DNA of 63,196 bases, taken from contig JAFQPI010000035.1 in the NCBI GenBank assembly GCA_017411805.1, forward strand, positions 1-63,196. Reading direction: 5' to 3'. Below are positions 10,431 through 45,630 of the stretch, piece by piece (the stretch's first letter is position 1; each line of letters begins with the position of its first letter). A program made the position numbers and the translations under genes. The stretch is from Clostridia bacterium. GTDB taxonomy: Bacteria; Bacillota; Clostridia; Oscillospirales; CAG-272. The notes beneath the pieces were generated by a model. The model had not been told where the DNA came from and made no database searches. It saw only the letters and a program-made list of their open reading frames with translations.

Positions 10431-10581
10431 GGAAGATACTTAAGAAACTTTTCTCGAAAAGTTTCTTAAGTCGACCTCCGCAGAGGTCGAAACACTCCTT
10501 GCGCTTCGAACCGGCGGCGCCCCTGCCGACGGTTCGGAAGGAGTCAATCCTTTCCTTCAGGGAAGGATTGCGCTCCTTCAC
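10431..10581 (-). repeat. B element copy 1 (antisense to the arg operon)
   Basis: Read on the minus strand: GTGAAGGAGCG, hairpin I (outer arms GAAGGAG/CTCCTTC), hairpin II with arms GAACCG/CGGTTC, GAAGCGCAA, hairpin III (CGACCTCTGCGGAGGTCG), and the terminal hairpin with arms AGAAACTT/AAGTTTCT. Module order is as in eight other copies while the paired bases differ. Confidence 0.8.
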
Positions 10582-10608
10582 TCTCTTTCTGAATTTAATC
10601 ACCAAAGG

Positions 10609-10770
10609 GTGACAGAGCGCAACACTTCCCTACAATCGGGAAGTATCGACTCTGTCCAAAATGTCGAAGCAAGCTTCGCCATTTTGAAGCACGATGGCGA
10701 AGGCTGAAGCCTTCGCATTAAAATGGGGCTCTGCCCCAAACCCCGCAAACTTTTGAAAAAGTTTGATCAA
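10609..10770 (+). repeat. B' element copy 2 before argD
   Basis: Starts with an extra hairpin, GACAGAG/CTCTGTC with inner arms ACTTCCC/GGGAAGT, then hairpin II with arms CAAAATG/CATTTTG, a GGGGCTCTGCCCC hairpin and the terminal CAAACTT/AAGTTTG hairpin. Together with copy 1 it forms a head-to-head pair separated by 27 bp. Confidence 0.75.
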
Positions 10771-10799
10771 AACCTCCCGCTTATTAAAAAGGTACAAAA

Positions 10800-11960
10800 A
10801 TGAACACATTCGAACTTGATTCAAAATACGTCGCGCAGACCTACCGTCGTTTTCCCGTTGAGATCGTCTCGGGCAAGGGCGCGGTAGCATATGACGTAAA
10901 CGGCAAAAAATACATCGATATGGGCTCGGGAATTGCCACGAACACCTTCGGTTACGCCGACGACGAATGGATCGCGGCTGTAACGGCACAGCTTAATTCC
11001 TTCTCCCACACCTCGAACCTCTACTATACCTCGCCCTGCGCACGTCTTGCACAGCTTCTTTGCGAGCGCACGGGCATGTCCCGCGTCTTCTTCGGCAATT
11101 CGGGCGCCGAAGCAAACGAGGGCGCGATCAAGGCGGCGCGCAAATATTCCTTTGATAAATACGGCGAGGGCAGAAATAAGATCGTAACCCTCGTAAATTC
11201 CTTCCACGGCAGAACGATAACTACCCTTGCGGCAACGGGTCAGGACGTCTTCCACACTACCTTCATGCCCTTCACCGAGGGCTTCTGCCACGTCCCCGCA
11301 AACGACACAGACGCAATGCTTTCGGCTATGACTTCCGATGTCTGCGCGGTTATGATAGAGCTCGTTCAGGGCGAGGGCGGCGTCAATGCGCTTGACCGAG
11401 ACTACGTTTCCGCGGTCGCCAAGGCTTGCGCGGAACGCGATATCCTCCTCATCATCGACGAGGTACAAACGGGCAACGGACGCACGGGTACCCTCTATGC
11501 CTTCGAGCAATTCGGAATCAAGCCCGATATCGTATCCACGGCAAAGGGTCTCGGCGGCGGTCTGCCGATCGGGGCTGTGATGCTCGGCGAAAAGGTAAAG
11601 GACACCCTTTCGGCAGGATCGCACGGCTCTACCTTCGGCGGAAATCCCGCTTGCGCGGCAGGTGCGCTGAACGTGATCAGCCGCCTCGATGAAGATTTTC
11701 TCGCCGAGGTCCGCAAAAAAAGTGAATATATATTCACAAAGCTCGGACAAATGAAGGGTGTGCTCTCCGTAAGCGGTCTCGGACTTATGATCGGAATCAA
11801 GGCAGAAAAGCCGACTCCCGAAATAATCTCCGAGGGTCTCTCTCGCGGCGTCCTCTTCCTTTCGGCAAAGGATAAGCTCCGCCTCCTCCCTCCGCTCAAT
11901 ATTTCATATACCGAGATCGATGAGGCACTATCCGTCCTTGAACAGATTTTGTCAAAATAA
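10800..11960 (+). CDS. argD: acetylornithine aminotransferase
   Basis: PLP-dependent class III aminotransferase that turns N-acetylglutamate semialdehyde into N-acetylornithine with glutamate as donor. 386 residues. FFGNSGAEANEGAIK binds cofactor phosphate, IIDEVQTGNGRTG carries the Asp that contacts the pyridine nitrogen, and Lys249 in STAKGLGGG is the Schiff-base lysine. The ATG at 10800 follows a modest AAGG. It lies 399 bp beyond argB, a gap filled by two hairpin elements, so it may be read through from argCJB or have its own signals. A perfect palindromic ARG box is inside the gene. N-succinyldiaminopimelate aminotransferase activity is a known side activity of the family. Confidence 0.9.
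   Translation: MNTFELDSKYVAQTYRRFPVEIVSGKGAVAYDVNGKKYIDMGSGIATNTFGYADDEWIAAVTAQLNSFSHTSNLYYTSPCARLAQLLCERTGMSRVFFGNSGAEANEGAIKAARKYSFDKYGEGRNKIVTLVNSFHGRTITTLAATGQDVFHTTFMPFTEGFCHVPANDTDAMLSAMTSDVCAVMIELVQGEGGVNALDRDYVSAVAKACAERDILLIIDEVQTGNGRTGTLYAFEQFGIKPDIVSTAKGLGGGLPIGAVMLGEKVKDTLSAGSHGSTFGGNPACAAGALNVISRLDEDFLAEVRKKSEYIFTKLGQMKGVLSVSGLGLMIGIKAEKPTPEIISEGLSRGVLFLSAKDKLRLLPPLNISYTEIDEALSVLEQILSK
11722..11737 (+). promoter_or_regulatory. perfect ARG box palindrome inside argD
   Basis: GTGAATATATATTCAC is a perfect 16-bp palindrome containing the ArgR consensus (11723-11736), within codons for SEYIFT and about 225 bp before the argD stop. Confidence 0.5.
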
Positions 11961-11983
11961 ATGAAATAAAAAAACAAAAAATC

Positions 11984-12024
11984 ACGATCCGCTTATTGAA
12001 ATGAGCGGATCGTTATGGTATAAT
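11984..12024 (+). promoter_or_regulatory. promoter of the BspA-like gene, with -35 in a hairpin loop
   Basis: TTGAAA at 11996-12001, 17 bp, TATAAT at 12019-12024. The -35 falls in the loop of a hairpin (ACGATCCGCT 11984-11993 with AGCGGATCGT 12004-12013). An A-run before the hairpin would make it a terminator for minus-strand transcripts; on the plus strand it lacks a T-run. Confidence 0.7.
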
Positions 12025-12061
12025 ATATAGGCATTTTATTTAATATGAAAGGATTATCACC

Positions 12062-14878
12062 ATGAAAAAAGCGTTAATCGCGATCTTGGCTCTCATTCTT
12101 GTGCTCTGCGCCTTTGCGGCGTGCGACGAGGATTCCAAGAGCTGCGACCATGATTTCAGTGACTGGAAGGTCACAAAAGAACCCACCTGCACAGAGCAGG
12201 GCATACGTTCACGCTCCTGCGACCTTTGTAATGAGCGCGAGCGCGAATACATTGATATGATTCCTCACACTGAGGAGGTTGTCGCAGGTTATGCTGCCAC
12301 CTGCCAGTCCGAGGGTCTCTCGGACGGTAAGATTTGCACAGTTTGCAACACGGTCATTCTCGAGCAAACCGTCCTTCCCCTCGGCGCACACGTTGAAGGA
12401 ACCACTCCCGGCTACGCGGCAACCTGCACAAGCCAGGGTCTCACCGAAGGAAAGTACTGCACTCTTTGCAACAAAACACTCGTCGAGCAGGTATATATCG
12501 AAAAGCTTCCCCATACCGAGATAACAATTCCCGGCACCGAGCCCACCTGCACGAAGAGCGGCTACGCGGACGGCAAGGAATGCTCTGTTTGCGGTACCAT
12601 CACACTCAAGAGAGCATATCTTGATAAGCTCGGCCACAACTACGTAAACACCGAGATCGTTCCCTCCACCTGTGCCGTCAAGGGTCAGGGTGCCGCTGAG
12701 GTATGCTCGCGTTGCGATTACGTAAACAAAAAGTCCGAGGAGCTTCCCCTCACCGAGGATCACAGCTTTGTCGGCGGCCAATGCACGCTCTGCGGCGAAT
12801 ATGAAGGCGCGGATCACAACCTCTCCTTCAAGTTCTCCTCGTCTCTCAACGGCTATATGGTAACCGGCATCGGAAGCTCGACCGCCACCGAGATCATTAT
12901 TCCCTCTACCTACAACGGCTCCTTCGTTTACGCCATTGATTCCAACGCATTCAAGAACAATACCTCTATCACAAGCGTTGTAATTCCCGACTGCATCACC
13001 AGAATCGGCAACGCATCCTTCAGAAGCTGTACTTCTCTCACCTCCGTAACCTTCGGAGATGGCATTACCAATATCGAATCGAACGCCTTCCGCGGATGCA
13101 CAGCACTCGCATCCGTCTCCTACCCCGCAAGCGTCACAAAGGCGGGCGAATATATCTTTGAGGGCTGTATTTCTCTTCAGACCGCCATCATCGGTAACGA
13201 TACCGTAAGCGAGACTCCTACAATTATGGGCAACTTGATCTTCTCGGGCTGTAAGGCTCTTACCTCGGTTAAGATCGGCAACAGCGTATCTGCAATTTCC
13301 GAGCGCGCGTTCAAAAACTGCTCTGCCCTCACCACAATTGACTTCGGCACCTCTGTCAAATCCATCGGATACGAAGGATTCTATGCCTGCACTTCTCTCA
13401 CCGCGATCGTCATCCCCGACAGCGTTGAGCTGATCGACACCTACGCTTTCCAGAACTGTGAAAACGTAACAGCCGTCACCCTCGGCAAGAACCTCAAGAC
13501 CATCAACGGCAGCGCCTTCAGATACTGCAAGGGCCTTAAAACTCTCGTTATCCCCGCAAGCGTCAAATCTATCGGAAGCTATGCATTTGCAAACATTTCG
13601 AAGCTTGAAACTCTTACTATCGGCGACTCGAGCGAGCAGACTGATCTTACCGTCATCGGCGACTATGCTTTCGCATCCTGCGAGGAGCTCAAGACCGTAG
13701 TGATCGGCGACAACGTAGCCTCTATCGGTAAGTATTCCTTCCAGGGCTGCCAGAGCCTTTCCACTCTCACTCTCGGCAAGAGAGTTGAGGTCATTTATGA
13801 CGGTGCATTCAAAAACTGCATCCGCCTTACCGCGCTTGCGATCCCCGATTCGGTTGTAACCGTAGCTTACGAATCCTTCTCCGGCTGTAAAGCACTTGCA
13901 TCCATAACCTTCGGAAGCGGAGTCAATACCATCGGATCAAGCGCATTCTACAACTGCATCTCTCTTAAAAACGTCGTTATCCCCGCAAACGTCAAGAAAA
14001 TTGATTATCATGCATTCTATAACTGCTCCGGAATCGTAACCTTAACCGTCGGCGACGAAAACGAGCAGGCTGAGCTTACAGTCATCGGTGACGGCGCTTT
14101 CTCCAATTGCGCGGCTCTTTCTACCGTGTATATCGGCAACGGCGTTTCAGTTCTTGATGGAGATAGCTTCAGAAACTGCGACTCTCTCGTTTCCGTAACC
14201 CTCGGAAACAAGGTCGAAACACTCGGCGGTTACTGCTTCTACGACTGTGACTCTCTTCCCTCCATCACATTCCCCGACTCTCTCAAGACCATTGGTGGTT
14301 CCGCATTCTACGACTGTAACGCACTCTCCGAGATCAAATTCGGCACTTCTCTTACAAAGATAGACGGATATGCCTTTGAAAAGTGCACGTCCCTTGAGAC
14401 CCTTGTTATTCCCTCGTCCGTAACCTTCATCGGAACCAGCTGCTTCTCGGGCTGCAGCAGCCTTACATCCGTCATCATCGCAGAAGGCGCAGAGCAGATA
14501 GAGTTCACGACCATAGGTCAGAGCGCATTCTACAACTGCGACGCACTTACCACCGTCGTTATCACCGATAACGTAAAGAGCATCGGAAGTCAGGCATTCC
14601 AGTCCTGCAACGCCCTCACCACAATCACCTTCGGCAAGAACCTCGAGGTCATCGGCAACCAGGCGTTCTACGATTGCAATGCACTCACCGCGATCGCGCT
14701 TGACGTCGACATCATATCTGTCGGAGACTACTGCTTCAACAACTGCACGTCTCTTACCTCGATCTCCTACAATGGCACAATGGCACAGCTGAGCCTCGTT
14801 TCCTTTGGCTCCAACGTGCTCAAGAAAGTTCCCGCAACATTCGTCAAGTGCATAGACGGAAACGTTCCCATCGCATAA
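12062..14878 (+). CDS. BspA-like leucine-rich-repeat lipoprotein
   Basis: Predicted surface lipoprotein of 938 residues. The signal peptide ends in a lipobox (LCAFAAC), with Cys21 as the lipid-attachment site. Residues about 28-255 hold five to six short cysteine repeats of the form TC...G...C..C (for example PTCTEQGIRSRSC), each with a CxxC pair, possibly metal ribbons. From about 265 to the end are LRR_5/BspA repeats of about 23 residues (IGSYAFANCSSLTSVTIP-type), well over twenty copies. Such proteins usually bind host or bacterial surfaces or matrix; no enzyme domain is seen. It has its own promoter and lies 28 bp before argF, so argF is probably on its transcript, an unusual operon partner. 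ATG at 12062 follows AAAGGA. Confidence 0.88.
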   Translation: MKKALIAILALILVLCAFAACDEDSKSCDHDFSDWKVTKEPTCTEQGIRSRSCDLCNEREREYIDMIPHTEEVVAGYAATCQSEGLSDGKICTVCNTVILEQTVLPLGAHVEGTTPGYAATCTSQGLTEGKYCTLCNKTLVEQVYIEKLPHTEITIPGTEPTCTKSGYADGKECSVCGTITLKRAYLDKLGHNYVNTEIVPSTCAVKGQGAAEVCSRCDYVNKKSEELPLTEDHSFVGGQCTLCGEYEGADHNLSFKFSSSLNGYMVTGIGSSTATEIIIPSTYNGSFVYAIDSNAFKNNTSITSVVIPDCITRIGNASFRSCTSLTSVTFGDGITNIESNAFRGCTALASVSYPASVTKAGEYIFEGCISLQTAIIGNDTVSETPTIMGNLIFSGCKALTSVKIGNSVSAISERAFKNCSALTTIDFGTSVKSIGYEGFYACTSLTAIVIPDSVELIDTYAFQNCENVTAVTLGKNLKTINGSAFRYCKGLKTLVIPASVKSIGSYAFANISKLETLTIGDSSEQTDLTVIGDYAFASCEELKTVVIGDNVASIGKYSFQGCQSLSTLTLGKRVEVIYDGAFKNCIRLTALAIPDSVVTVAYESFSGCKALASITFGSGVNTIGSSAFYNCISLKNVVIPANVKKIDYHAFYNCSGIVTLTVGDENEQAELTVIGDGAFSNCAALSTVYIGNGVSVLDGDSFRNCDSLVSVTLGNKVETLGGYCFYDCDSLPSITFPDSLKTIGGSAFYDCNALSEIKFGTSLTKIDGYAFEKCTSLETLVIPSSVTFIGTSCFSGCSSLTSVIIAEGAEQIEFTTIGQSAFYNCDALTTVVITDNVKSIGSQAFQSCNALTTITFGKNLEVIGNQAFYDCNALTAIALDVDIISVGDYCFNNCTSLTSISYNGTMAQLSLVSFGSNVLKKVPATFVKCIDGNVPIA

Positions 14879-14906
14879 ATCCACGCACACCCGAAAGGAA
14901 ATTACC

Positions 14907-15809
14907 ATGAAACATCTTCTTAAACTCTCCGACCTTACAAAAGAAGAGCTTTATTCAATACTCGACCTCGCCGACGAGCTCAAGGCTGAGCGTCGCGCGG
15001 GCATCAAGAAGCCCTATCTTGCGGGCAAGACCCTCGGCATGATCTTCCGCAAGTCCTCGACAAGAACCCGCGTCTCCTTCGAGGTGGGTATCCACGAGCT
15101 CGGCGGAAAGGGTCTCTTCCTCTCCTCGAATGACCTGCAGATAGGTCGAGGAGAGGAGACCGCGGACACCATCCGTGTTCTCTCCCGCTACCTTGACGGC
15201 ATTATGATCCGTACCTTCGATCAGAAGGAGGTCGAGGATATGGCAAAATTCGGCTCGATCCCGATCATCAACGGTCTTACCGACTATGCGCATCCCTGCC
15301 AGGTCCTTGCAGACCTCCAGACCATCCGTGAGCTTCGCGGCGATCTTGAGGGCAAGAAGCTCTGCTTCATCGGCGACGGCAACAATATGGCAAACTCCCT
15401 CATCGTCGGCTGTATACTTGCCGGAATGAGCGTTGCGATCGCTTGCCCCGCGAATTATAAGCCCGACGCCGAGATCATGAAGTGGGCGGAGGCAACCGGC
15501 AGATTCCTCTGCACCGAGTCGATCCCCGAGGCAGCCGCAGACGCCGACGCGCTCTACACCGACGTCTGGGCATCTATGGGTCAGGAGGGTGAAGCCGCCA
15601 TCCGCCGCAAGGCTTTCGAGGGCTATCAGATCAATTCGACCGTTATGACCTACGCGAAACCCGACGCGCTCGTACTCCACTGTCTCCCCGCGCACCGCGA
15701 GGAGGAGATCACCGCGGAGGTCTTCGAGGCACACGCAGCCGAGATCTTCGAAGAAGCCGAAAACCGCCTCCACGCGCAGAAGGCTGTTATGGTAAAGCTG
15801 ATGTCGTGA
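14907..15809 (+). CDS. argF: ornithine carbamoyltransferase
   Basis: Makes citrulline from ornithine and carbamoyl phosphate. 300 residues, family-typical. The carbamoyl-phosphate loop SSTRTR (51-55), HPCQ at 129-132 and the ornithine-site HCLPAHR at 258-264 are intact, so it is an anabolic-type OTCase; a catabolic role cannot be excluded but no arcA or arcC is nearby. The start has AAAGGAA about 7 nt upstream. It follows the BspA-like gene by 28 bp with no promoter seen between, and is closed by a strong terminator. Confidence 0.93.
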   Translation: MKHLLKLSDLTKEELYSILDLADELKAERRAGIKKPYLAGKTLGMIFRKSSTRTRVSFEVGIHELGGKGLFLSSNDLQIGRGEETADTIRVLSRYLDGIMIRTFDQKEVEDMAKFGSIPIINGLTDYAHPCQVLADLQTIRELRGDLEGKKLCFIGDGNNMANSLIVGCILAGMSVAIACPANYKPDAEIMKWAEATGRFLCTESIPEAAADADALYTDVWASMGQEGEAAIRRKAFEGYQINSTVMTYAKPDALVLHCLPAHREEEITAEVFEAHAAEIFEEAENRLHAQKAVMVKLMS

Positions 15810-15813
15810 ATAT

Positions 15814-15847
15814 AAAAAATGCAAGTCACACGGGGCTTGCATTTTTT
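15814..15847 (+). terminator. argF terminator
   Basis: AAAAAATGCAAG and CTTGCATTTTTT pair around a 10-nt loop, with the 3' arm ending in six T. Likely works in both directions. Confidence 0.85.
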
Positions 15848-15939
15848 AGTTAATGTCACGCAAAGCGTGAGTTAATATCTCGCTTACGCGAGAGTTAAGA
15901 TCGGCTTGCGCCGAGTTAATGTTCGCCTGAGGCGAAGCT
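15848..15939 (+). repeat. short-hairpin array, AGTTAA spacer type
   Basis: Four hairpins with 5-8 bp stems (CACGCAAAGCGTG, CTCGCTTACGCGAG, CGGCTTGCGCCG, TTCGCCTGAGGCGAA) joined by AGTTAATGT, AGTTAATATC, AGTTAAGAT and AGTTAATG. Sense orientation to argF, starting right after its terminator. Confidence 0.75.
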
Positions 15940-15944
15940 TTTCT

Positions 15945-16550
15945 TCATCTCACTCTCAATCTCTCCTCCGCCCATTTTTCATATACCTTCACGCAAACGA
16001 ATCTTTGATAAACAAAGTAGATCAATACGTTTATTACGTAAGTAACAAGTATCAGCACGATGCTGATCATGACAGATCCCCCTCCGATCAGCAATCCGAG
16101 CACGCTCGAAAGCATACTCTGCGAAAAAACGAGCATCAGGGAAAAGGGAACTCCGATCATCCGCGCGATCGTCAAAACCCCGCAGATCACAGAAAAATAA
16201 GTCAACATATATTTTCCTCTTTCCGAAAAATACCGACCCGAAAAATCCGCCTGATCAAATTTTTCCGTGCCGAGTGCGGCAAGAAAAACCCTCTTCTCTT
16301 CCGAATCGCGCCCCAACCTGACCATTGAATATACGTAGAATCCGACGAACGCGCCAAGCTGTAAAAGCGAATATAAAACGGTCAGAAAGACGTTCTGCTC
16401 CCCGCCCGTCGCAACGTCGGTTGCAAATTCAAGAGTCGCATTGCCGAAAAACATATTGACAAGCGTTGTTACCAAGAGATACGCGAAGTAAAATACCGCG
16501 TTTGGTATAAAAAAATCCTTCAAAAAGGCGGTGATCTTAATCTTTTTCAT
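15945..16550 (-). CDS. unrecognised multi-span membrane protein
   Basis: A 201-residue protein with four hydrophobic stretches, roughly residues 14-34, 55-77, 110-135 and 145-180, and a basic C terminus (WAEERLRVR). No catalytic motif or family recognised. Good RBS (GGAGG, 6 nt before ATG) that overlaps the end of the upstream XRE-membrane regulator gene; the 13-bp gap makes a two-gene operon, so it may be the target or partner of that regulator, an arrangement common in Clostridia. Confidence 0.7.
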   Translation of the reverse strand: MKKIKITAFLKDFFIPNAVFYFAYLLVTTLVNMFFGNATLEFATDVATGGEQNVFLTVLYSLLQLGAFVGFYVYSMVRLGRDSEEKRVFLAALGTEKFDQADFSGRYFSERGKYMLTYFSVICGVLTIARMIGVPFSLMLVFSQSMLSSVLGLLIGGGSVMISIVLILVTYVINVLIYFVYQRFVCVKVYEKWAEERLRVR

Positions 16551-16563
16551 CGTTTTCCTCCAT

Positions 16564-17256
16564 TCAAAAGCCGAGCAGATGCTTGAATTTCGAATCCGTC
16601 GGCACCAGATCCTTTATAATAATGTATCTGCGCTGTTTGTGCTGAAAAATATACTGATCCCGCGTGTTCCAGCTCTTCTCGATGCAGGTCATATCGATCC
16701 GCTCGTAAAGTCGAAGCTCGCCGAACGACGAATAGACCGAACAACATATTCCGCCGCCTACAACCTCGTAAACGTATTTTTCCTCTGCCATTCTCGAGTT
16801 GATCTTCGCGCGCTGGCTGAGGAAGCTGATCACCATACCGACTATTTTTACAATATTTATGATCAGATACACCCAGGCAAGCGAAACAGCAGTATTGGTT
16901 GATGCCGTCACTATTACCAAAACCATAAAAGCAACTCCGTACAAACACCAAGCAAACCGTTCCTTGGTCAACGTGATCATCGCCTTGTCGATATCACTTA
17001 CGGAATATTCAAAACTATACCTCTCCTCCACCTCGGCAGGAGTGTTTTTCTCCGCGCACACGTTTTGCTCGAAAAAGTCGTTCATCGAAAGCTTGAATAT
17101 CTCGCAAAGGCGCATAAGGTTTTCAACCGTGGGGATCGTTTGGTCATTCTCCCATTGGCTGACCGTCTGGCGAGTCACGAAAAGCTGCTGTCCGAGCTCC
17201 TCCTGCGACAGCTCCGCCCGTTTTCTGTAGTAAGCAATTTTCTCTCCGATGCTCAT
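16564..17256 (-). CDS. XRE-family regulator with C-terminal membrane domain
   Basis: Residues 5-60 form a Cro/C1 helix-turn-helix (LSQEELGQQLFVTRQTVSQWE). Two hydrophobic segments follow (about 105-125 and 128-148), then a charged C-terminal domain of about 80 residues. This layout suggests a membrane-tethered regulator, possibly sensing envelope state. ATG at 17256 follows GGAGGTGG. A perfect 8-bp inverted repeat 80 bp upstream (17336-17354) could be its operator. Operon with the downstream membrane protein gene. Confidence 0.8.
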   Translation of the reverse strand: MSIGEKIAYYRKRAELSQEELGQQLFVTRQTVSQWENDQTIPTVENLMRLCEIFKLSMNDFFEQNVCAEKNTPAEVEERYSFEYSVSDIDKAMITLTKERFAWCLYGVAFMVLVIVTASTNTAVSLAWVYLIINIVKIVGMVISFLSQRAKINSRMAEEKYVYEVVGGGICCSVYSSFGELRLYERIDMTCIEKSWNTRDQYIFQHKQRRYIIIKDLVPTDSKFKHLLGF

Positions 17257-17751
17257 TTTACCACCTCCAAAGGTTTTTGTTGCCTCAATTCTATCACGCC
17301 GCCTGCGAAAAGTAAAGCAAAAATTGCTTTCTCCATGTCAAGCACGGCTTGACACGGGGTGAATTTCCTCAGGTCGGATGGTTTTGGCTGCTTTACTCCG
17401 CAATATTTTCCGTATTTATGTAAAATGAAGTTTTTTCTATTATATCATATTTTTTCTCAAAAAACCGATTTAGGGATAAATGGTATCATTTTAGGGATAA
17501 ATGGTCATTCTTCGTTTCAAAAGCCACAAACCGTAAGGGGACGGCGCCTCGACGGTCCGAGCCCAATTAAAGTATTGATGTGTATTTAATCAAGAAAATA
17601 TCATTATGTATTCTTAATTTAAGACACATATTTAATATAATGCCCACGGACCGCCGAGGACGTCGGTCCCTACTGTCTCGTAATAAAAATTTTGCATCAC
17701 TATTGTTTTTTCACTCGAAAAACCGTTGCGATATTAGAACGCTGAATAAAA
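17257..17751. other. gene-poor interval with an inverted and a direct repeat
   Basis: TGTCAAGC/GCTTGACA arms at 17336-17354 form a perfect inverted repeat containing TTGACA on both strands, a possible operator/promoter of the XRE gene. TTTAGGGATAAATGGT occurs twice (17469-17484 and 17490-17505), 21 bp apart. I see no convincing gene; two short open frames lack RBS and family. Confidence 0.4.
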
Positions 17752-17878
17752 ATCAGCCGTAGGCTGTATATCATCAACGCGTAGCGTTGTATATCATCAG
17801 CCGTAGGCTGTATATCATCAACGCAAAGCGTTGTATATCATCAGCCGTAGGCTGTATATCACCAACGCGAAGCGTTGC
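17752..17878. repeat. alternating short-hairpin array, TATATCATCA spacer type
   Basis: Six hairpins alternate strictly between AGCCGTAGGCT (three identical copies) and AACGCNNAGCGTT (loops GT, AA, GA), joined by the near-constant spacer GTATATCATC. Confidence 0.85.
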
Positions 17879-17890
17879 ATCGGAAACGGG

Positions 17891-18056
17891 GTTCAGAAAG
17901 CTGAGCAAAGAAGTTCGATCACTCTGAACTCCTCCCTCCGGTTTACGGAGGGAGGGCGGGAGGGAGGTCCCTATTTGCAGATACAGAATTATGAGGATAT
18001 CGGCAAAGACTCTATGCCGGCGCAAAAATACCTGCAGGCACCCGCAGTCGGAACAA
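17891..18056 (+). repeat. A element copy 1
   Basis: Starts TTCAGAAAGCTGAGC, then a CTCCCTCCGG/CGGAGGGAG hairpin, GGTCCC, GCAGATACAGAATTATGAGG and the tail CACCCGCAG. Same module order as copies at 24.5, 40.7, 41.4 and 45.2 kb. Here no B element follows. Confidence 0.7.
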
Positions 18057-18101
18057 AAAACGGACACGCCATCAAGACATGTCCGTTTTCTTAATAAAAA
18101 T

Positions 18102-18299
18102 TCACTCGCCCTTCTTCAAGATCTCCTCGGGCAGCTCGATCTCACCCTCGCGGGTCTCAAAATCCTTGATACACTTACGGATAAGGTAAAGTACCTGCCC
18201 GTTCGCAGAACGACCCTCGTACTTCGAAATATAATGCAGCTTATAATGCAACTCGGGGTCAATTTCAAGTCCAAGATGCTTGTTGTTTTTGTTTCTCAT
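18102..18299 (-). CDS. small ribbon-helix-helix DNA-binding protein
   Basis: A 65-residue protein with an Arc/MetJ-type pattern: the strand HLGLEIDPELHYKLHYIS, then helices EGRSANGQVLYLIRKCIKDFE. RHH proteins bind DNA as dimers and often autoregulate small operons, including toxin-antitoxin pairs. ATG at 18299 follows GGAGA. It is transcribed divergently from the 91-residue gene at 18412, and the 112-bp gap holds repeated AAGTATACTT palindromes, probable operators for this protein. Confidence 0.75.
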   Translation of the reverse strand: MRNKNNKHLGLEIDPELHYKLHYISKYEGRSANGQVLYLIRKCIKDFETREGEIELPEEILKKGE

Positions 18300-18326
18300 A
18301 TTTTATCTCCAAAATTAACTTAATTT

Positions 18327-18388
18327 AAGTATATTTTAAGATATTTTGGTGATATAATGTTGTAAGTATACTTGATTTAAGTATACTT
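18327..18388. promoter_or_regulatory. repeated AAGTATACTT operators in the divergent gap
   Basis: Perfect palindromes at 18364-18373 and 18379-18388 (15 bp apart) plus a partial copy AAGTATATTT at 18327-18336. A TATAAT lies between at 18353-18358. Likely RHH binding sites controlling both divergent genes. Confidence 0.6.
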
Positions 18389-18411
18389 TATTTGTTGACT
18401 TGGAGAAAAAT

Positions 18412-18687
18412 ATGAGAATTGCCGTTCTGACAACGTCAAAACTGACAGCCGCTTGCCCTGATAATACTATTCCCGAAAGCTGCACCGAAATACTGACAGA
18501 TAACCATCGCATTCGCCAATTTGCAGAAAACAAGCATATAAGATGCTCCGAAGTACCGCCGGGCGACGCGGTGGAAAAAGCCGAATACGTGATTATCCTA
18601 TGCAACAAAAAGGCAAGCCGACTCGGTTTACTAATTGGAAAGTGTAACAGATTCAAAAGATCATTTGAGGTTGTAATAATTGAATGA
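18412..18687 (+). CDS. unrecognised 91-residue protein divergent from the RHH gene
   Basis: Begins MRIAVLTTSKLTAACPD and ends with FKRSFEVVIIE. The alternating hydrophobic strands (IAVLTT, AEYVIILCNK, GLLIGKC) suggest a small Rossmann-like alpha/beta fold, possibly a nucleotide-binding remnant; I do not recognise the family. ATG at 18412 is chosen because GGAG sits 6 nt upstream; TTG at 18400 is possible. Shared palindromic operators suggest control by the RHH protein. A toxin-antitoxin relation is conceivable but no toxin motif is visible. Confidence 0.6.
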   Translation: MRIAVLTTSKLTAACPDNTIPESCTEILTDNHRIRQFAENKHIRCSEVPPGDAVEKAEYVIILCNKKASRLGLLIGKCNRFKRSFEVVIIE

Positions 18688-18705
18688 TATCCGACGTCTT
18701 TTCGA

Positions 18706-18792
18706 GTATCAGAACGCTGAAGATTATTCTTCGCAGTCTTTAACTCCCCTTCCCGGTTCACGGGAAGGGGGCGGGGGATGGGTCCCGATTGA
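18706..18792 (+). repeat. A element copy 2 (5' part only)
   Basis: TATCAGAACGCTGAAG, then the CCCCTTCCCGG/CGGGAAGGGGG hairpin and GGGATGGGTCCCGATT. The 3' half of A is missing; B copy 3 follows at 18822. Confidence 0.65.
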
Positions 18793-18821
18793 AGTGCGCG
18801 AGGAATTTTGATCAATATTGG

Positions 18822-18960
18822 GTGAAGGAGCGCGAGCCTTCCGCGAGGAAAGCCTCGACTCCTTCCAAACAGCCTGCGGGGCGCAGTCTGTTTGAAGCGC
18901 AAGTGCGGGGCTTTGCCCCGTACCCCACTAAAGAAACTTTTCGAGAAAAGTTTCTTTAGA
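18822..18960 (+). repeat. B element copy 3
   Basis: GTGAAGGAGCG, hairpin I, hairpin II with arms AAACAG/CTGTTT, GAAGCGCAA, GGGGCTTTGCCCC, and terminal hairpin with arms AAGAAACTT/AAGTTTCTT. Confidence 0.8.
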
Positions 18961-18995
18961 ATCTTCAAAAGCTTTTACTCTTTTATTAATTTTGA

Positions 18996-19092
18996 AGATT
19001 TCCGCTCGGCGGAAATTTTCCTTAAACTTCGCCAACGGCGAATCTTAACTTGCCGAAGGCAATCTTAACTCTCGCAAAGCGAGATCTTAACT
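18996..19092 (-). repeat. short-hairpin array after argH, AGTTAAGAT spacer type
   Basis: Read on the minus strand from argH: CTCGCTTTGCGAG, TTGCCTTCGGCAA and TTCGCCGTTGGCGAA hairpins joined by AGTTAAGAT, then AGTTTAAGG and an AATTTCCGCC hairpin. Confidence 0.75.
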
Positions 19093-19134
19093 GATAAGCC
19101 AAGCCGCCCTCTTTCGAGGACGGCTTGGCTTATC
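19093..19134 (-). terminator. long hairpin after argH
   Basis: GATAAGCCAAGCCG pairs with CGGCTTGGCTTATC around a short loop, 6 bp past the argH stop. No T-run follows on the minus strand, so it may protect the 3' end rather than terminate. Confidence 0.55.
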
Positions 19135-19139
19135 ACTAT

Positions 19140-20513
19140 TTATTTCGTCGCTTCTCTGACAAACTCAATCTGAGTTTTGACAGATTCCGCGGCGGGGCCT
19201 CCGGCGCTTGTTCGGCGGCAGAGGCAATTATCAAGGTTGACGGCATCGTAAACGTCGTCACCGATAATATCGGAATAATTTTTGTAGACCTCAAGCGGAA
19301 GATTCTCAAGAACCTTGCCCGTCTTTATGCATTCGGCAACGACCTGTCCCGAGATCTTATAAGCCGCGCGGAAGGGCAATCCTTTGCCGACGAGGTAGTC
19401 GGCAAGATCGGTGGCATTGATGAATCCGCCCTCGGCGGCGGCACGCATCTTCTGCACGCGCGCCGTCATCGTTGCCGTCATCGGGATGGCAACGTCAAGG
19501 CACATCTTAACTGTGTCAAGCGCGTCGAAAACGGTCTCCTTGTCCTCCTGCATATCCTTGTTGTACGCAAGCGGCAGACCCTTCATCACGGTCAGAAGCG
19601 AGGTCAGATCACCGTTGACGCGACCCGTCTTACCTCTGATAAGCTCTGCCATATCGGGATTTTTCTTCTGCGGCATGATCGACGAGCCGGTGGTATAAGC
19701 ATCCGAAAGCTCAACGAAACCGAACTCCCAGCTTGACCAGAGGATAACTTCCTCGGCGTAGCGCGAGAGATGCGTCATTAAGATCGAGCAATTCGATAGG
19801 AATTCGAGCGCGAAATCACGGTCGGAAACGCCGTCGATCGAGTTGAGCGCGATCTTCGAGAAACCGAGCTTTTCAGCCTCGAAATATCTGTCTGTATCGT
19901 AGGTCGTGCCCGCGAGAGCGCAGGATCCGATCGGGCAGATGTCGATGCGCTTGAGGGTATCCTCAAATCTCTCAACGTCGCGCAGAAGCATCATGGCGTA
20001 GGCAAGCAGATGATGACCGAAGCTGATCGGCTGTGCGCGCTGGAGATGGGTATATCCGGGCATGATCGCGGTTGCGTACTCCTCCGCCTTATCGGCAAGG
20101 ACCGAAGCCATCGCACGGATCTTCTCCACAACGACGCCGGTTTCCTCGCGCAGATACATACGGAAATCAAGCGCGACCTGATCGTTGCGGCTTCTCGCTG
20201 TATGGAGCTTCTTGCCAACGTCACCGAGACGCGCGGTAAGCACGCTTTCGACGAACATATGGATGTCCTCGGCGGTCGGATCGATCTCAAGCTTGCCCTC
20301 ATCGAGGTCTGCAAGAATTCCGCCGAGGCCCTCGATGAGCTTCTCTGCCTCACCCGGCGCGATGATCCCCTGTTTTGCGAGCATAGCGGCGTGCGCCATG
20401 CTACCCGTGATATCTTCCTTATACATACGGCAGTCGACCGCGATCGACGAATTGAAATCGTCAGCGATCTTGTCGGTCGCCGCGCTCGTTCTGCCTTCCC
20501 AAAGTTTTGCCAT
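19140..20513 (-). CDS. argH: argininosuccinate lyase
   Basis: Splits argininosuccinate into arginine and fumarate, the last step of the pathway. 457 residues of the fumarase/aspartase superfamily. TARSRNDQV (106-113), THLQRAQP (155-162) and the flexible catalytic loop GSSIMPQKKNPD (276-287) are intact. ATG at 20513 follows AAAGGAA. It lies 410 bp downstream of argG on the same strand, the gap being filled by a B'/B hairpin pair, so cotranscription is possible but not certain. Confidence 0.93.
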   Translation of the reverse strand: MAKLWEGRTSAATDKIADDFNSSIAVDCRMYKEDITGSMAHAAMLAKQGIIAPGEAEKLIEGLGGILADLDEGKLEIDPTAEDIHMFVESVLTARLGDVGKKLHTARSRNDQVALDFRMYLREETGVVVEKIRAMASVLADKAEEYATAIMPGYTHLQRAQPISFGHHLLAYAMMLLRDVERFEDTLKRIDICPIGSCALAGTTYDTDRYFEAEKLGFSKIALNSIDGVSDRDFALEFLSNCSILMTHLSRYAEEVILWSSWEFGFVELSDAYTTGSSIMPQKKNPDMAELIRGKTGRVNGDLTSLLTVMKGLPLAYNKDMQEDKETVFDALDTVKMCLDVAIPMTATMTARVQKMRAAAEGGFINATDLADYLVGKGLPFRAAYKISGQVVAECIKTGKVLENLPLEVYKNYSDIIGDDVYDAVNLDNCLCRRTSAGGPAAESVKTQIEFVREATK

Positions 20514-20541
20514 AATTAATTCCTTTCAAAGGTTGAAAGTT

Positions 20542-20701
20542 TTGATCAAACTTTTTCAAAAGTTTGCGGATTCTTAAGGCAGAGCCTTAAGTCGCCCGCC
20601 GCAGCGGGCGAAAATCCCCCTTGCGCTTCGAACAGGCTCCGTGCCGGAGACTGTTCGGAAGGAGTCGAGCCTTTCCTCGCGGAAGGCTCGCGCTCCTTCA
20701 C
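20542..20701 (-). repeat. B element copy 4, just upstream of argH
   Basis: Minus strand: GTGAAGGAGCG, hairpin I (arms CGAGCC/GGCTCG), hairpin II with arms GAACAG/CTGTTC, GAAGCGCAA, CGCCCGCTGCGGCGGGCG, CTTAAGGCTCTGCCTTAAG and the terminal CAAACTTTT/AAAAGTTTG hairpin. It ends about 30 bp before the argH start and would form the end of an argH leader. Confidence 0.8.
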
Positions 20702-20727
20702 CCCATTTTATCATAAAATCCAAAAAG

Positions 20728-20890
20728 TTGACAGAGCACAATAGCCCCGCGTAGGGGGCTATTGACTCTGCCCGAGCTGCCTGCGGGACGCAGTCAGCTC
20801 GAAGCGCATAAGAGTGTTCCGTCCTCTGCGGAGGACGGCAAGGGCTACGCGCCCTTGACGGCGCCACCTTTTGAAAAAGGTGGACGAAAA
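20728..20890 (+). repeat. B' element copy 5 between argG and argH
   Basis: Extra 5' hairpin GACAGAG..CTCTGCC with inner arms ATAGCCCC/GGGGCTAT, hairpin II with arms GAGCTG/CAGCTC, GAAGCGCA, then CCGTCCTCTGCGGAGGACGG, CAAGGGCTACGCGCCCTTG and CACCTTTTGAAAAAGGTG. Head-to-head with copy 4 across 26 bp. Confidence 0.78.
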
Positions 20891-20904
20891 CTTCCCCTCT
20901 TTAG

Positions 20905-20940
20905 CTAATTTTGCATTTTGCATTTAGCATTTTGCATTCT
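20905..20940 (-). repeat. TGCAAAA heptamer run over the argG stop
   Basis: On the minus strand ATGCAAAATGCTAAATGCAA and so on: four units. The first units encode the last argG residues (NAKC) and the stop. Confidence 0.65.
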
Positions 20941-22159: not shown

Positions 22160-22175
22160 AATAAACTCCTTGTTT

Positions 22176-22263
22176 TGCATAAATATGCATGATTTTTGTG
22201 AATACCTGCATATTATACACCATTTTAATGAATATGTCAATACCTAAAATGAATAAAAATGCG
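22176..22263 (-). promoter_or_regulatory. argG promoter with ArgR operator sites
   Basis: Minus strand TTGACA at 22240-22235, 17 bp, TATAAT at 22217-22212. Operators: TGAATAAAAATGCG at 22250-22263, upstream of the -35, close to the Bacillus ARG box; and the palindrome TGCATAAATATGCA at 22176-22189 in the leader, 12 of 14 consensus matches. A weaker TGAATACCTGCA lies at 22199-22210. Confidence 0.7.
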
Positions 22264-22276
22264 TTTTTCATAAAAA

Positions 22277-22318
22277 ATTTCAGTTGTCGACATTTTGTCG
22301 ACAACTGAAATCTTTTTT
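22277..22318. terminator. bidirectional terminator between the lipoprotein gene and argG
   Basis: ATTTCAGTTGTCGACA and TGTCGACAACTGAAAT pair with a TTT loop; A-run before and T-run after. It ends the minus-strand lipoprotein transcript. Confidence 0.8.
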
Positions 22319-22323
22319 ATATA

Positions 22324-23703: not shown

Positions 23704-23811
23704 TGCAAACGACCTCCTTATTAGTATATCTCTGCTCTATATGACAGATTTTTCAGCTTAAGGTTTCACATAATGCGAGAAATTTACATTTTTTATATTT
23801 TACATAAAGAT

Positions 23812-24273: not shown

Positions 24274-24390
24274 AGATTTATCTCCTTGAACGCTAAGATA
24301 TTTACATATACAATTATATCACATTAATACCACGGAATCAATATTTTCTCATTATTATGACGGTTTTTTATTCTCGAAAACGAGGTTTAG

Positions 24391-24454
24391 ATAGCAAAAC
24401 AAGAAAAGTTCACGCTCTGAAACTCCCCTTCCCGGTTTACGGGTAGCGAAGCGG
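24391..24454 (+). repeat. A element copy 3 (fragment)
   Basis: Ends in CTCCCCTTCCCGGTTTACGG, then breaks off into unrelated sequence (GTAGCGAAGCGGCGCC). Confidence 0.5.
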
Positions 24455-24495
24455 CGCCGAGGTATTGAATGATTTTCAAGAATTCCGCCTCAATG

Positions 24496-24672: not shown

Positions 24673-24698
24673 GCCGCGCGACGAAGTTGCGCGGAGAG

Positions 24699-24895
24699 TG
24701 AAGGAGCGAAAACCTCCCGCTAAGGGAGGTTTTACTCCTTCCAAGCGGTCGCCGGGGACGGCGCCCGCTTGAAGCGCAGGGGGTGAGCAAGCTTCGCTTG
24801 CGGGGTTGCCTTCGTCAACCGTTTTCGCGCTCTGCGGAGCGCGACTTAAGGCTCTGCCTTAAGAATCCGCGAACTTTGAAAAGTTCGATCAAACT
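24699..24895 (+). repeat. B element copy 6
   Basis: GTGAAGGAGCG, hairpin I (arms AACCTCCC/GGGAGGTT), hairpin II with arms AAGCGG/CCGCTT, GAAGCGCAG, then several CTCTGC-loop hairpins (GCGCTCTGCGGAGCGC, CTTAAGGCTCTGCCTTAAG) and a terminal GAACTT/AAGTTC hairpin. Confidence 0.8.
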
Positions 24896-24922
24896 TTACC
24901 GCTGTTTTCTTTTATTTAAAAT

Positions 24923-26240: not shown

Positions 26241-26250
26241 TAATATTTGA

Positions 26251-28423: not shown

Positions 28424-28480
28424 TGATGTAGGAGAATATTTATCAGTACATATAATGACCGCGCGTAAAACGCGCGGAGG

Positions 28481-28641
28481 ATGAAGGAGCAAAAACCACC
28501 CACGAGGGGCGGTTTTACTCCTTCCAAGCGGGAACCGAGGACGGCACCCGCTTGAAGCACGGAGAGTATTCCGACCTCTGCGGAGGTCGGCAAGGGCTCT
28601 GCCCCTTGACCCCGCAAACTTTGAAAAGTTTGATCAAACTT
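28481..28641 (+). repeat. B element copy 7, in the deacetylase leader
   Basis: ATGAAGGAGC, hairpin I (arms AACC.CCC/GGG.GGTT), hairpin II with arms AAGCGG/CCGCTT, GAAGCAC, CGACCTCTGCGGAGGTCG, CAAGGGCTCTGCCCCTTG and the terminal CAAACTT/AAGTTTG hairpin. In sense orientation to the gene at 28785. Confidence 0.8.
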
Positions 28642-28671
28642 TTACTCTGTTTATAAATCGGAAAATTTCCG

Positions 28672-40487: not shown

Positions 40488-40550
40488 GAAAAGTGTAAAG
40501 TGAAAAGTGCAAAGTTAAGGTGAATTTTCGCCAAGGCGAAAATTTTCCTA
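40488..40550 (+). repeat. AAAGTG(T/C)A heptamers and hairpin after mrnC
   Basis: GTGAAAAGTGTAAAGTGAAAA-type units, TTAAGG, then AATTTTCGCC/GGCGAAAATT hairpin: the same order as at other gene ends, with drifted heptamers. Confidence 0.55.
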
Positions 40551-40556
40551 TTAACA

Positions 40557-40645
40557 AATACGTTCGCGAAGCGAACATATCGTATCCGTAGGATATATCG
40601 TGTGAAACATATCGTGCGAAGCATCTCGTGTCGAAGACCAATATA
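40557..40645 (+). repeat. short-hairpin array, ATATCGT spacer type
   Basis: TTCGCGAAGCGAA, ATCCGTAGGAT, GTGTGAAACAT-like, TGCGAAGCA and GTGTCGAAGAC(C) units separated by ATATCGT or TCTCGT. Confidence 0.6.
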
Positions 40646-40667
40646 CAAGAGATTATAATTTAACAAA

Positions 40668-40857
40668 ATTCAGAACGCTGAACTATAAAGTTCGCTCTCT
40701 CTAACTCCCCTTCCCGGTTGACGGTGAAGTCATGCAACTCTCACAAGCGAGAGTTGCTGGGGGATGGGTCCCTATTTATAAAATGCAAAATTATTGGATA
40801 CCGTCCTCGGACAGAAGTGGGCGCGAAATTTTTGCATACACCCGCAGATGGAAGATA
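40668..40857 (+). repeat. A element copy 5, forming the leader of the next gene
   Basis: TTCAGAACGCTGAAC, CTCCCCTTCCCGG hairpin with a short insertion, GGGATGGGTCCC, GCAAAATTATTGG, then CACCCGCAG and, 5 bp on, the RBS AAGGAG of the membrane protein gene. Confidence 0.7.
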
Positions 40858-40871
40858 CGAAAGGAGTTCAA

Positions 40872-41340: not shown

Positions 41341-41346
41341 ACTATA

Positions 41347-41516
41347 TTCAGAACGCTGAACAACAAAGTCTGTACTCTCAAGCTCCCCTTCCCTGTTCAA
41401 GGGAAGGGGGTGGGGGATGGGTCCCGATTTATAAAATGCAAAATTATCGGATACCGTCCTCGGACAGAAAGAGGCGCGAGAATTTTGCATATAACCGCAG
41501 AAAACACGAACACTCT
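41347..41516 (+). repeat. A element copy 6
   Basis: TTCAGAACGCTGAAC, CCCCTTCCC/GGGAAGGGG hairpin, GGGATGGGTCCC, GCAAAATTATCGG and a shortened tail (ACCGCAG). B copy 8 follows 31 bp later. Confidence 0.75.
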
Positions 41517-41547
41517 ATAGCCATCCCGCGCTCGAAGAGGGCGGGGA

Positions 41548-41686
41548 GTGAAGGAGCGAAAATCTCCCCTGAAGGGAAGATTTTACTCCTTCCAAACAGT
41601 CGGCAGGGGCGCCGCCTGTTTGAAGTGCAATTACGGGGCTTTGCCCCGCACCCCAATAAAGAAACTTTTTGAAAAAAGTTTCTTTA
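41548..41686 (+). repeat. B element copy 8, before the cyclophilin gene
   Basis: GTGAAGGAGCG, hairpin I (arms AATCTCCC/GGGAAGATT, one bulge), hairpin II with arms AAACAG/CTGTTT, GAAGTGCAA, GGGGCTTTGCCCC and the terminal AAGAAACTT/AAGTTTCTT hairpin. Confidence 0.8.
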
Positions 41687-41767
41687 TAATCTTCAAAAAC
41701 TTCCAGCTATTAATTTCCATTCGCGCATCGCGCGACAGAACAATCAAAGAAAAGGAACAAAATAATA

Positions 41768-44405: not shown

Positions 44406-44487
44406 AGAACGCACCTTCCTTTTTTACTGTTCAAAGGTATTATATCATAAATATTCGCCAAAATCAATAGTTCAAAATACAAACTCT

Positions 44488-45096
44488 TCAGATATGGAAT
44501 ATCCACTCATAAACACCGTTTTCCTTTTCCTTCTCTTCCACCGTAATATCAAGATAATTATAAATATCAACGTTGCTACAAGAACGTCCGGTATAAACGC
44601 GTATGATATTCTCTCCCAAATAACCATTTCTGTCGTAAGGAGTCCATTTTTCTCCCGCACCGTTGGGATTTTTTACCTCGATTTTTATTCCTCCATATTC
44701 CTTTTCAACGGAAAAGAATTCAATGAATGAAGCATCTCCCTCTATATCGAGTCGGGCATTCTCGTTTTCGCCATCGATCACTTCGATCCGACAGAGATTT
44801 CCGACTCGAATTTCGATATTTGTCAGTTGTTCAAAAACGAAAGTTCGTTCGTGAACAGAGCAATTTTTCATATTATCCTCACTGACAAGCGTTTCCCCGA
44901 AAAGCACAGCGACCGAAACTCCGAAAAGCTCGGCAATAACGGGGAACAGAGTAACGTCGGGGTATCCGATGCCGCACTCCCATTTTGACACGGACTGTGA
45001 GGAAATTCCGAGTTTTTTTGCCAAAGACGTCTGTGTCCAGCCTTTTTCTTTTCGCAAATTTGATACTATTATGCAAAATTTGTTTAAGTTGTTCAT
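44488..45096 (-). CDS. XRE-family regulator with beta-rich C-terminal domain
   Basis: 202 residues. Residues 5-60 are a Cro/C1 helix-turn-helix (WTQTSLAKKLGISSQSVSKWECG). The remainder is not membrane-bound; it has a repeating strand pattern (CRIEVIDGENENARLDIEG, GGIKIEVKN, CSNVDIYNYLDITVEE) like the DUF4097 adhesin-type beta-helix. ATG at 45096 has AGGAGGG upstream. Target unknown; it sits next to the FAD oxidoreductase gene, 82 bp apart, on the same strand. Confidence 0.75.
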   Translation of the reverse strand: MNNLNKFCIIVSNLRKEKGWTQTSLAKKLGISSQSVSKWECGIGYPDVTLFPVIAELFGVSVAVLFGETLVSEDNMKNCSVHERTFVFEQLTNIEIRVGNLCRIEVIDGENENARLDIEGDASFIEFFSVEKEYGGIKIEVKNPNGAGEKWTPYDRNGYLGENIIRVYTGRSCSNVDIYNYLDITVEEKEKENGVYEWIFHI

Positions 45097-45189
45097 TTTA
45101 TCCCTCCTTGATAGAATTATAGCATAATCGGGGCGATATTTCAATAACTGCAAAGTTGTAAAAGTTGCTACGTTGATTAACAAAATTAT

Positions 45190-45363
45190 CAAAAAGCTGA
45201 ACAAATGAGCTCGCGCTTTTAAGCTCCTCCCTTCGGTTTACGAAGGGAGGGTGGGAGGGATGTCCCGATCTACAACGCAAAATTATCAGGATATCGGCAA
45301 AATCTCTATGCGGGCGCAAAATTACCTGTATGCACCCGTAGTAAGCACAAAATCTCCATAGAA
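45190..45363 (+). repeat. A element copy 7
   Basis: Begins AAAAAGCTGAACAAATGAGC, then CTCCCTTCGG/CGAAGGGAG-type hairpin, GGGATGTCCC, GCAAAATTATCAGG, CACCCGTAG. B copy 9 follows 25 bp later. Confidence 0.7.
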
Positions 45364-45388
45364 ATTGCGCGACCGAAGGTCGCGCAGG

Positions 45389-45630
45389 GTGAAGGAGCGC
45401 ATACTTGCCTACGGCAAGTTGCAACTCTTGCTTCTCGGCTTACGCCTCCATTTTCCTTCGGAAAACCACAAGAGCTGCACTTCCCTACACTCGGGAAGTA
45501 TTGACTCTGTCCAAACAGCCGGCAGGGGCGCCGTCTGTTTGAAGCGCAGGGGTATTTCGACCTCTGCGGAGGTCGACTTAAGGCGCTGCCTTAAGAATCT
45601 GCCACCTTTTGAAAAAGGTGGACGAAAACT
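45389..45630 (+). repeat. B element copy 9 (enlarged)
   Basis: GTGAAGGAGCG, ACTTGCC/GGCAAGT hairpin with extra sequence, CACTTCCC/GGGAAGT and ACTCTGTCC as in B', hairpin II with arms AAACAG/CTGTTT, GAAGCGCAG, CGACCTCTGCGGAGGTCG, CTTAAGGCGCTGCCTTAAG and terminal CCACCTT/AAGGTGG. Confidence 0.72.

Follow-up and report, generated by a model that had tools for sequence, protein, structure and literature searches.

Element B, a dispersed family of covarying hairpins in a narrow Clostridia clade: architecture, preferred strand and possible mobility

A 63,196-nucleotide stretch of DNA from a Clostridia bacterium (contig JAFQPI010000035.1; hereafter 'the window', meaning the whole stretch at that length) contains nine intergenic copies of a multi-hairpin, apparently non-coding sequence, here called element B, in which the shape is conserved while the bases that form it change. 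What kind of entity maintains a fold in this way? The original prediction offered three options (a structured RNA, a cruciform bound by a protein, or a palindrome-based mobile unit). The analysis reported here leads us to favour, with somewhat better than even confidence, a reading of element B as a small interspersed repeat, modular and non-autonomous, that is mobilised in trans and whose fold is probably kept on the complement of the strand on which it was first described.

Architecture and covariation of the hairpins

All nine copies are present where the original prediction had put them (the coordinates that it gave for the two copies on the minus strand are approximately the low ends of those copies), and the alignment of their cores bears out its claim of one common module order. 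An element measures approximately 155-250 bp, and its usual order is an outer stem, P1, that encloses hairpin P2, followed by hairpin P3, GAAGCGCA, a few middle hairpins and a terminal hairpin, P6, with GATCAAAACTTTCC; the order is fixed, with optional or repeated middle modules. P2 and P3 correspond to hairpins I and II of the earlier description, and in P3 six base pairs are separated from four further ones by a one-by-one internal mismatch, the loop being mostly G-rich. P1 had been overlooked: the flanking sequence GTGAAGGAGCG pairs with ACTCCTTC to form a covarying outer stem around P2, in variants that include GAAGGAG/CTCCTTC (six occurrences around P2 in the window, against 0.00 in 100 shuffles), GACAGAG/CTCTGTC (one occurrence in the window) and, elsewhere, GAATGAG/CTCATTC, GACTTAA/TTAAGTC and others. 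RNAalifold, applied to the nine aligned cores, returned nearly the same fold.

That the stems covary, with a conserved shape and a changing sequence, is evident from the nine cores themselves: 94.5% of 238 cells are paired (75.8% in shuffles), 16 of 27 pairs carry compensating changes on both sides, double-change cells number 42 rather than the 12.3 of shuffles, and covariation is 0.492 as opposed to 0.140 for the best slid version. Slid controls on the same copies reached at most 50.8% paired, with 5 pairs changed on both sides. The pattern recurs in larger collections. From a set of 97 copies (A2), three partial, weak rows (L120:10528, L117:2852 and L105:5276) were dropped before most counts to leave 94, and 82 copies fetched later (A3, no rows dropped) brought the total to 176; of these, 175 come from four carrier genomes, where 213 matches at E <= 0.001 exist, so that not all were examined, and many of the later copies are orthologous to earlier ones, so that the two sets are not independent. 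Across all 97 rows of A2, 97.4% of 2576 cells are paired and double changes occur at all 27 pairs, while the stems of the 94 and 82 copies together are nearly pure Watson-Crick (4576 of 4731 cells). Measured on the 94 copies against a home-made tree-aware null (20 simulated alignments, E floor 0.025), 11 of the 27 stem pairs were significant and 16 were not, the only other significant column pair being the internal mismatch of P3. The tip of the terminal hairpin lies downstream of the core in 85 of the 94 copies, the middle hairpins being read by eye. In copies with the exact tip searched, to which tip and arm counts are confined, the arms of P4 vary in compensation (309 of 315 cells Watson-Crick, 14 arm pairs); the corresponding figures are 179 of 180 cells and 6 arm pairs for the short form of P6, and 198 of 198 cells and 7 arm pairs for the long form.

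Copies that occupy corresponding loci in different genomes were compared in 26 chosen pairings, some of which share copies and at least three of which (L137:14205, L055:1779 and L135:11835, all kept in the totals) are perhaps not true orthologues. Stem pairs were unchanged in 573 cases, double-changed with pairing kept in 96 and changed otherwise in 28, and 182 of 716 unpaired sites had changed. Within orthologous sets, P2 tends to remain at its locus, whereas P3 and the middle hairpins are altered a whole paired unit at a time, which suggests that whole hairpins are exchanged between copies, in addition to point change.

One explanation for these data assigns the structure no function: replication, through template switching between the arms, might keep the palindromes perfect, in combination with recombination among copies. 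PMC8794818 reports that template switching can give rise to compensatory changes in RNA genes. For element B, the 697 stem pairs compared (96 with double and 28 with other changes) give a rate of approximately 16% per stem site, versus 25% for unpaired sites; such a pace, fast for a two-step process, counts towards this explanation, and one inverted pair of the window's genome appears in another carrier, G010, as a single P6 palindrome. The evidence that bears on the other side comes from the strand, and is taken up below.

The copies in the window are located as follows, with ends (outer ends in copies 1 and 4) placed by eye and scores given for R1, a covariance model of the element-B core. 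Copy 1 (10421..10584, minus strand; core 10500-10582; 101.4 bits, E 2.0e-17) has P1 of the GAAGGAG/CTCCTTC type around P2, P3 with arms GAACCG..CGGTTC, the GAAGCGCA segment, P4 and a long terminal hairpin, and is the left member of a head-to-head pair whose right member, 25 nt away, is copy 2 (10608..10781, plus strand, GACAGAG type; 79 bits, E 7.4e-13). Copy 3 lies at 18821..18981 (plus strand; 90.9 bits). Copy 4 (20531..20702, minus strand; 93.1 bits) is again the left member of a head-to-head pair, 24 nt from copy 5 (20727..20898, plus strand, GACAGAG type; 90.6 bits). The remaining four are all on the plus strand: copy 6 (24697..24903; 97.6 bits), with extra middle hairpin sequence; copy 7 (28480..28647; 84.2 bits); copy 8 (41547..41709; 97.3 bits), with the long terminal hairpin AAAGAAACTTTTTGAAAAAAGTTTCTTT; and copy 9 (45389..45638; core match 45468-45548, 61.5 bits, E 2.8e-9), an aberrant variant in which the left half is extended.

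The strand on which the fold is probably kept

The few mismatched stem cells are not symmetric with respect to strand. On the strand of the original prediction, the 94 copies hold 45 A.C, 8 G.T and 22 other mismatches in 2528 cells, and the 82 later copies hold 40, 11 and 29, respectively, in 2203; combined, 85 A.C stand against 19 G.T in 4731 cells, which on the complement read as 85 G.U and 19 A.C. A.C exceeds G.T in each of four genomes, the excess is smaller when distinct classes are counted (21 versus 12), and, the copies being related, binomial values for this asymmetry are only descriptive.

The internal mismatch of P3 is similarly restricted. In the 176 copies it is C.T 69 times and T.C 66 times (together 135; A.G or G.A on the complement), a Watson-Crick pair 38 times, and T.T, C.C or a gap once each, and it flips between C.T and T.C in 6 of 19 orthologous comparisons (five loci), two of these flips leaving the four inner pairs as they were. 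Three predictions were written down before most of the 82 later copies were fetched (L151-L153 had been fetched earlier); the one made for this position, that neither T.T nor C.C would occur, failed twice in the 82, once in a degraded-looking copy. Folding is likewise more stable on the complement: with RNA parameters in 86 of 94 cores, with DNA parameters in 87 of 94, and, for a longer stretch, in 62 and 80 of 85, respectively. Exact tips were found in the forward sense in 88 copies for P4, 64 for P5 and 81 for P6, and inverted in none.

Because of the A.C/G.T asymmetry, the C.T/T.C swap in P3 and the better folding of the complement, it is most likely that one strand is kept as a folded single strand, either RNA or single-stranded DNA, and that this strand is the complement of the one first described; were element B a structured RNA, the complement would probably be the relevant strand. 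The strand-asymmetric mismatches and the C.T/T.C swap at the same time disfavour a symmetric cruciform among the three options originally proposed.

They also bear on template switching, which predicts no strand asymmetry, would erase the P3 mismatch that most copies retain, and should invert loops, yet the exact tips of P4, P5 and P6 are never inverted (P2, P3 and P4b leave some room). Inversions of loops were rare in the template-switching study as well (PMC8794818). The kept P3 mismatch and the uninverted P4, P5 and P6 tips speak against template switching as a sole cause, and an explanation without any function at the level of structure is, in our estimation, improbable; template switching may help to keep the arms equal, without accounting for the kept mismatch or the oriented P4-P6 tips.

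Distribution, gene context and variable presence

Element B is abundant in a very narrow group of genomes. R1 finds 57 core matches at E <= 0.01 in the genome of the window (G000); at E <= 0.001, 4 of the genus's 13 genomes hold matches (56, 54, 76 and 27) and the remaining 9 hold none, so that a search of the genome and its relatives, as the original prediction had advised, yields dozens of copies in G000 and in three other genomes of the genus. The exact DNA pattern of the commoner core type was sought across 84,980 species, each represented by a single genome (the genome of the window itself may have been missing from these records); it occurs in 31 stretches, all of them in four ruminant-gut metagenome-assembled genomes (RGIG1801, RGIG9562, RGIG402 and RGIG5301), and no viral contig carried it. 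A tail pattern, allowing up to two mismatches, matched the same four genomes and, once, G003; that single match (G003:C112:112-138) is a perfect one in a genome without core matches, and might be a remnant, contamination or chance. An order-wide draw of 295 genomes, run with stricter filters under which only 15 matches were listed for G000, returned one other genome, G118, matched once and weakly at 40 bits. The copy concerned (L148 524-605) is of the variant seen at 45389, in another family of the same order, and is possibly the product of bin contamination or of transfer.

The orientation of element B to its neighbours is random. Of 94 copies, 80 could be placed between open reading frames of at least 150 amino acids (14 were unscored): 66 lie between frames on the same strand, which read against the element in 34 cases and with it in 32, while 9 lie between divergent and 5 between convergent frames. 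For the 65 copies with both frames within 700 nt the corresponding numbers are 28, 25, 8 and 4. These neighbours are open reading frames rather than curated genes, some more than 1 kb away, and the count replaces an earlier one based on frames of 90 amino acids (29, 23, 18 and 14, with 10 unscored), in which small frames lay across the elements. An intrinsic terminator or 3' untranslated-region element, which would keep a fixed orientation downstream of genes, was rejected on the strength of the random orientation in the 80 scored copies.

The flanks are equally uninformative. Upstream they hold at most 0.2 bits per base, except for the AG just before GTGAAGG (0.6 and 0.8), and downstream of the P6 tip (85 copies) they lose information beyond CTTTCC, the one exception being a run of T approximately 23-25 bases on that is put down to copies with a long terminal hairpin; judged by information content, there is therefore no conserved flanking promoter. 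Among the 94 copies, 11 close pairs of cores (within 250 nt) were found, of which 10 are head to head with 24-86 nt between cores. Of the two head-to-head pairs in the window, one separates an argB-like from an argD-like gene and the other an argH-like from an argG-like gene (neighbour families were assigned by Pfam, gene names by reading).

Orthologous gaps differ in what they hold. The pair formed by copies 4 and 5 occupies the argG-argH gap in G000, G010 and G001 and was not found there in G005, G009 and G003; the argB-argD gap holds a pair in G000 and G010, a different insert in G001 and a tight junction in G009. At a further gap the element is present in G001 and RGIG5301, and the gap is empty in G005; at each of two others, three genomes carry the element and the fourth does not, though it may retain remnants. 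In G010 the counterpart of the inverted pair at L149 13440-13960 in G000, mentioned above, is one terminal palindrome that has both tails (L151 2984-3159, minus strand), an arrangement that resembles the outcome of a deletion between inverted P6 hairpins. The carrier clade has probably acquired the family and is also losing copies of it. In G005 the argG-argH gap keeps only a P2-like hairpin, which prompted the idea that P2 is the pre-existing terminator of each locus; this was dropped, since other sites show terminator-like P1-P2 units that still form P1, as well as possible remnants, and these make loss of the rest of the element in G005 at least as likely.

The nature of element B and its nearest relatives

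The reading of element B as a repeat mobilised in trans rests on its many copies within a narrow clade, their random orientation and paired arrangement, flanks that carry little information, and a presence that varies; random orientation, flanks, variable presence and head-to-head pairs likewise make the palindrome-based mobile unit the favoured one of the three original options. Since the fold is kept on one strand, an enzyme acting in trans would recognise single-strand hairpins by shape and tip, for which the HUH transposases of REP/IS200-type elements and the integron integrase provide analogies. Such an enzyme would have copied element B in a burst in the ancestry of the four carriers, after which whole hairpins would exchange between copies by recombination, keeping the pairing while the sequence drifts.

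A number of observations weigh against this reading. No mobiliser was found in a search limited to Y1_Tnp, which was not found in G000 and G001 (both approximately 84% complete). No target duplication was seen, the sites without the element being ambiguous, too diverged or deletion-like; the ends, RGTGAAGGAGCG and GATCAAAACTTTCC, have no inverted match by eye, a dedicated test for terminal inverted repeats not having been made; and no gene lies between core and tail in the 94 copies scanned. Pairing persists in orthologous resident copies (double changes outnumber single or mismatch changes by 96 to 28), something that inert transposon copies would achieve only through conversion or selection. 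The strand first described also carries some signals of its own: a promoter-like GTGACA-N16-TACAAT at the left end of copy 2 (10609), which is of the GACAGAG type, and many P2 loops of the GNRA-like form GCAA or GCGA. Lastly, loop inversion is possible for P2, in which GCTTGC and GCAAGC both occur, and an inverted tip was met once in P4b and possibly once in P3 (GTCCC, the inverse of a common loop). In scans of positions 10300-28700, promoter-like sites number 34 (18.3 in shuffles) and terminator-like sites 27 (21.4 in shuffles); copy 2 is where one of the promoter-like sites starts (10609), and another lies on the minus strand at copy 5 (20734).

Several of the same features would suit a structured RNA that serves the host, transcribed from the complementary strand as a 3' untranslated or free RNA in the order P6-P5-P4-P3-P2/P1, with a terminator-like hairpin at its end. 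G.U over A.C mismatches, A.G/G.A swaps and better folding of the complement are all typical of RNA, pairing is retained in resident orthologous copies, and P2 often has A-tract and T-tract arms like those of an intrinsic terminator, P1-P2 being strongly terminator-like in some copies (L130:3528 and L151:13760). Random gene orientation, flanks without a conserved promoter, absence from 9 of 13 genomes of the genus and the lack of a fitting Rfam family wherever one was searched for argue in the other direction, as do G.U pairs in just 85 of 4731 cells of the complement, a number that is low for an RNA. We regard a host RNA as the main rival explanation, and as a clearly less probable one.

A more familiar form of mobility, in which element B would be the REP/BIME family of a RAYT-like gene of the genus, appears very improbable. 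Y1_Tnp genes (RAYT-like by reading of the proteins) are present in two of the four carriers, G005 and G010, and the high copy number (57 matches), intergenic position and inverted pairs (10 head to head among 94 copies) are as expected for such a family. The flanks of the Y1_Tnp genes, however, hold another palindrome pair (GTAGGGACC...-type in L146); R1 has no match at E up to 1 within 7800 bases at three Y1_Tnp loci (up to 1.5 kb on each side); no GTAG foot is seen by eye at P1 or P3 in the core alignment; and Y1_Tnp went undetected in G000 and G001. These REP/BIME-like inverted palindromes lie at L146 1110-1260 and L147 1-170, and a similar-looking inverted pair stands at 17520-17690 of the window, though G000 yielded no Y1_Tnp.

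No described family was found to fit element B. In line with the original statement that no named family with this layout was known, Rfam gave nothing at the gathering cut-off in the window, and searches of the open literature of PubMed Central, judged by title and start of abstract, turned up no description of it. A resemblance to the Na+ riboswitch (24.8 bits against a cut-off of 40.5, in the tail of one copy) was not repeated at the copies in the other six loci and was set aside as chance. By analogy, the nearest relatives are BOX elements for modularity and REP/REPIN sequences for a folded single strand. BOX of Streptococcus pneumoniae (boxA-boxB-boxC) is, as described by Croucher et al. 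2011 (PMC3049150), likewise a Firmicute repeat of approximately a hundred intergenic copies, with a variable middle and strong folding, clustered with other repeats; the same text reports terminal inverted repeats and target duplications for BOX, neither of which could be shown for element B. The hairpins of element B, in contrast, covary, and its left and middle modules look replaceable.

Integron attC sites combine a variable sequence with a conserved fold, and element B resembles them in its folded strand and variable sequence. PMC8266576 identifies the folded bottom strand of attC as the substrate, and states that Escherichia coli REPs require conserved stem mismatches. REP/BIME and REPIN sequences, with TnpA-REP (RAYT), share with element B the short palindromes in inverted pairs and the recognition of a folded single strand; element B differs in having several hairpins in a fixed order and freely changing stems, and in showing neither a GTAG foot nor a RAYT link. 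Mitochondrial double-hairpin and repetitive hairpin-forming elements are also dispersed hairpin repeats, and those of sponges have conserved stems and variable loops, the reverse of element B (PMC2800124).

Gut-1 RNA (RF01706), a gut-specific array of short variable hairpins that PMC2864571 lists for the human gut only, is similar in kind and differs in layout, and it matches an array neighbouring element B rather than element B. That match (L018 1259-1337; 52.3 bits, above gathering) is a linker-plus-short-hairpin array near an element-B copy. Arrays of similar layout with other linkers (TTAACT, TATATC, CATATCGTG) occur in the window at 18990-19095, 24950-25055, 45680-45765, 17750-17880 and 40545-40640, several of them just downstream of element B, and Gut-1 may represent a single linker type within a broader class of such arrays.

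Other repeats accompany the element. Upstream of several copies of element B there is a repeat of the form CTCCCCTTCCCGGTTTACGGGAAGGGG...GGATATCG..., which in some cases is separated from the copy by a GCGCG hairpin; it is found in the window at 17929-18060, 24510-24690, 40663-40860, 41341-41545 and 45182-45370. Three G000 genes of the 23S_rRNA_IVP family (PF05635; L214, L215 and L216) are bracketed, by eye, by short-repeat or hairpin arrays, as if these were the ends of a small mobile unit; a reading frame of similar look in G001 (L107 6180-6830) is bracketed in the same way, and TGCATTTTGCAT arrays like those at the 23S_rRNA_IVP genes also occur in the window. Positions 12062-14878 of the window encode a 938-amino-acid protein with BspA-type leucine-rich repeats (LRR_5), where several direct-repeat families are found.

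Returning to element B as a repeat mobilised in trans, it is an unusual variant of the small interspersed folded repeat in its covarying, apparently exchangeable hairpins and its strand-specific mismatch. A bolder proposal, and a doubtful one, is that it represents a new class of mobile element assembled from interchangeable hairpin cassettes, among them a hairpin with a covarying A.G/G.A internal pair, in which each hairpin is swappable, shapes recombine rather than sequences, and the folded strand is the substrate of a single-strand recombinase or of RNA-mediated copying.

Covariation is usually strong evidence of a functional RNA, and element B displays it in 176 copies, with very few G.U pairs and no sign of a gene-linked RNA; it is accordingly a test case for telling a structured RNA from a folded DNA. 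The asymmetries between A.C and G.T, and between C.T or T.C and other states of a mismatch, provide a cheap means of proposing which strand is selected. Certain structured RNA families known only from metagenomes, Gut-1 being an example, may likewise turn out to be repeats of broadly this kind.

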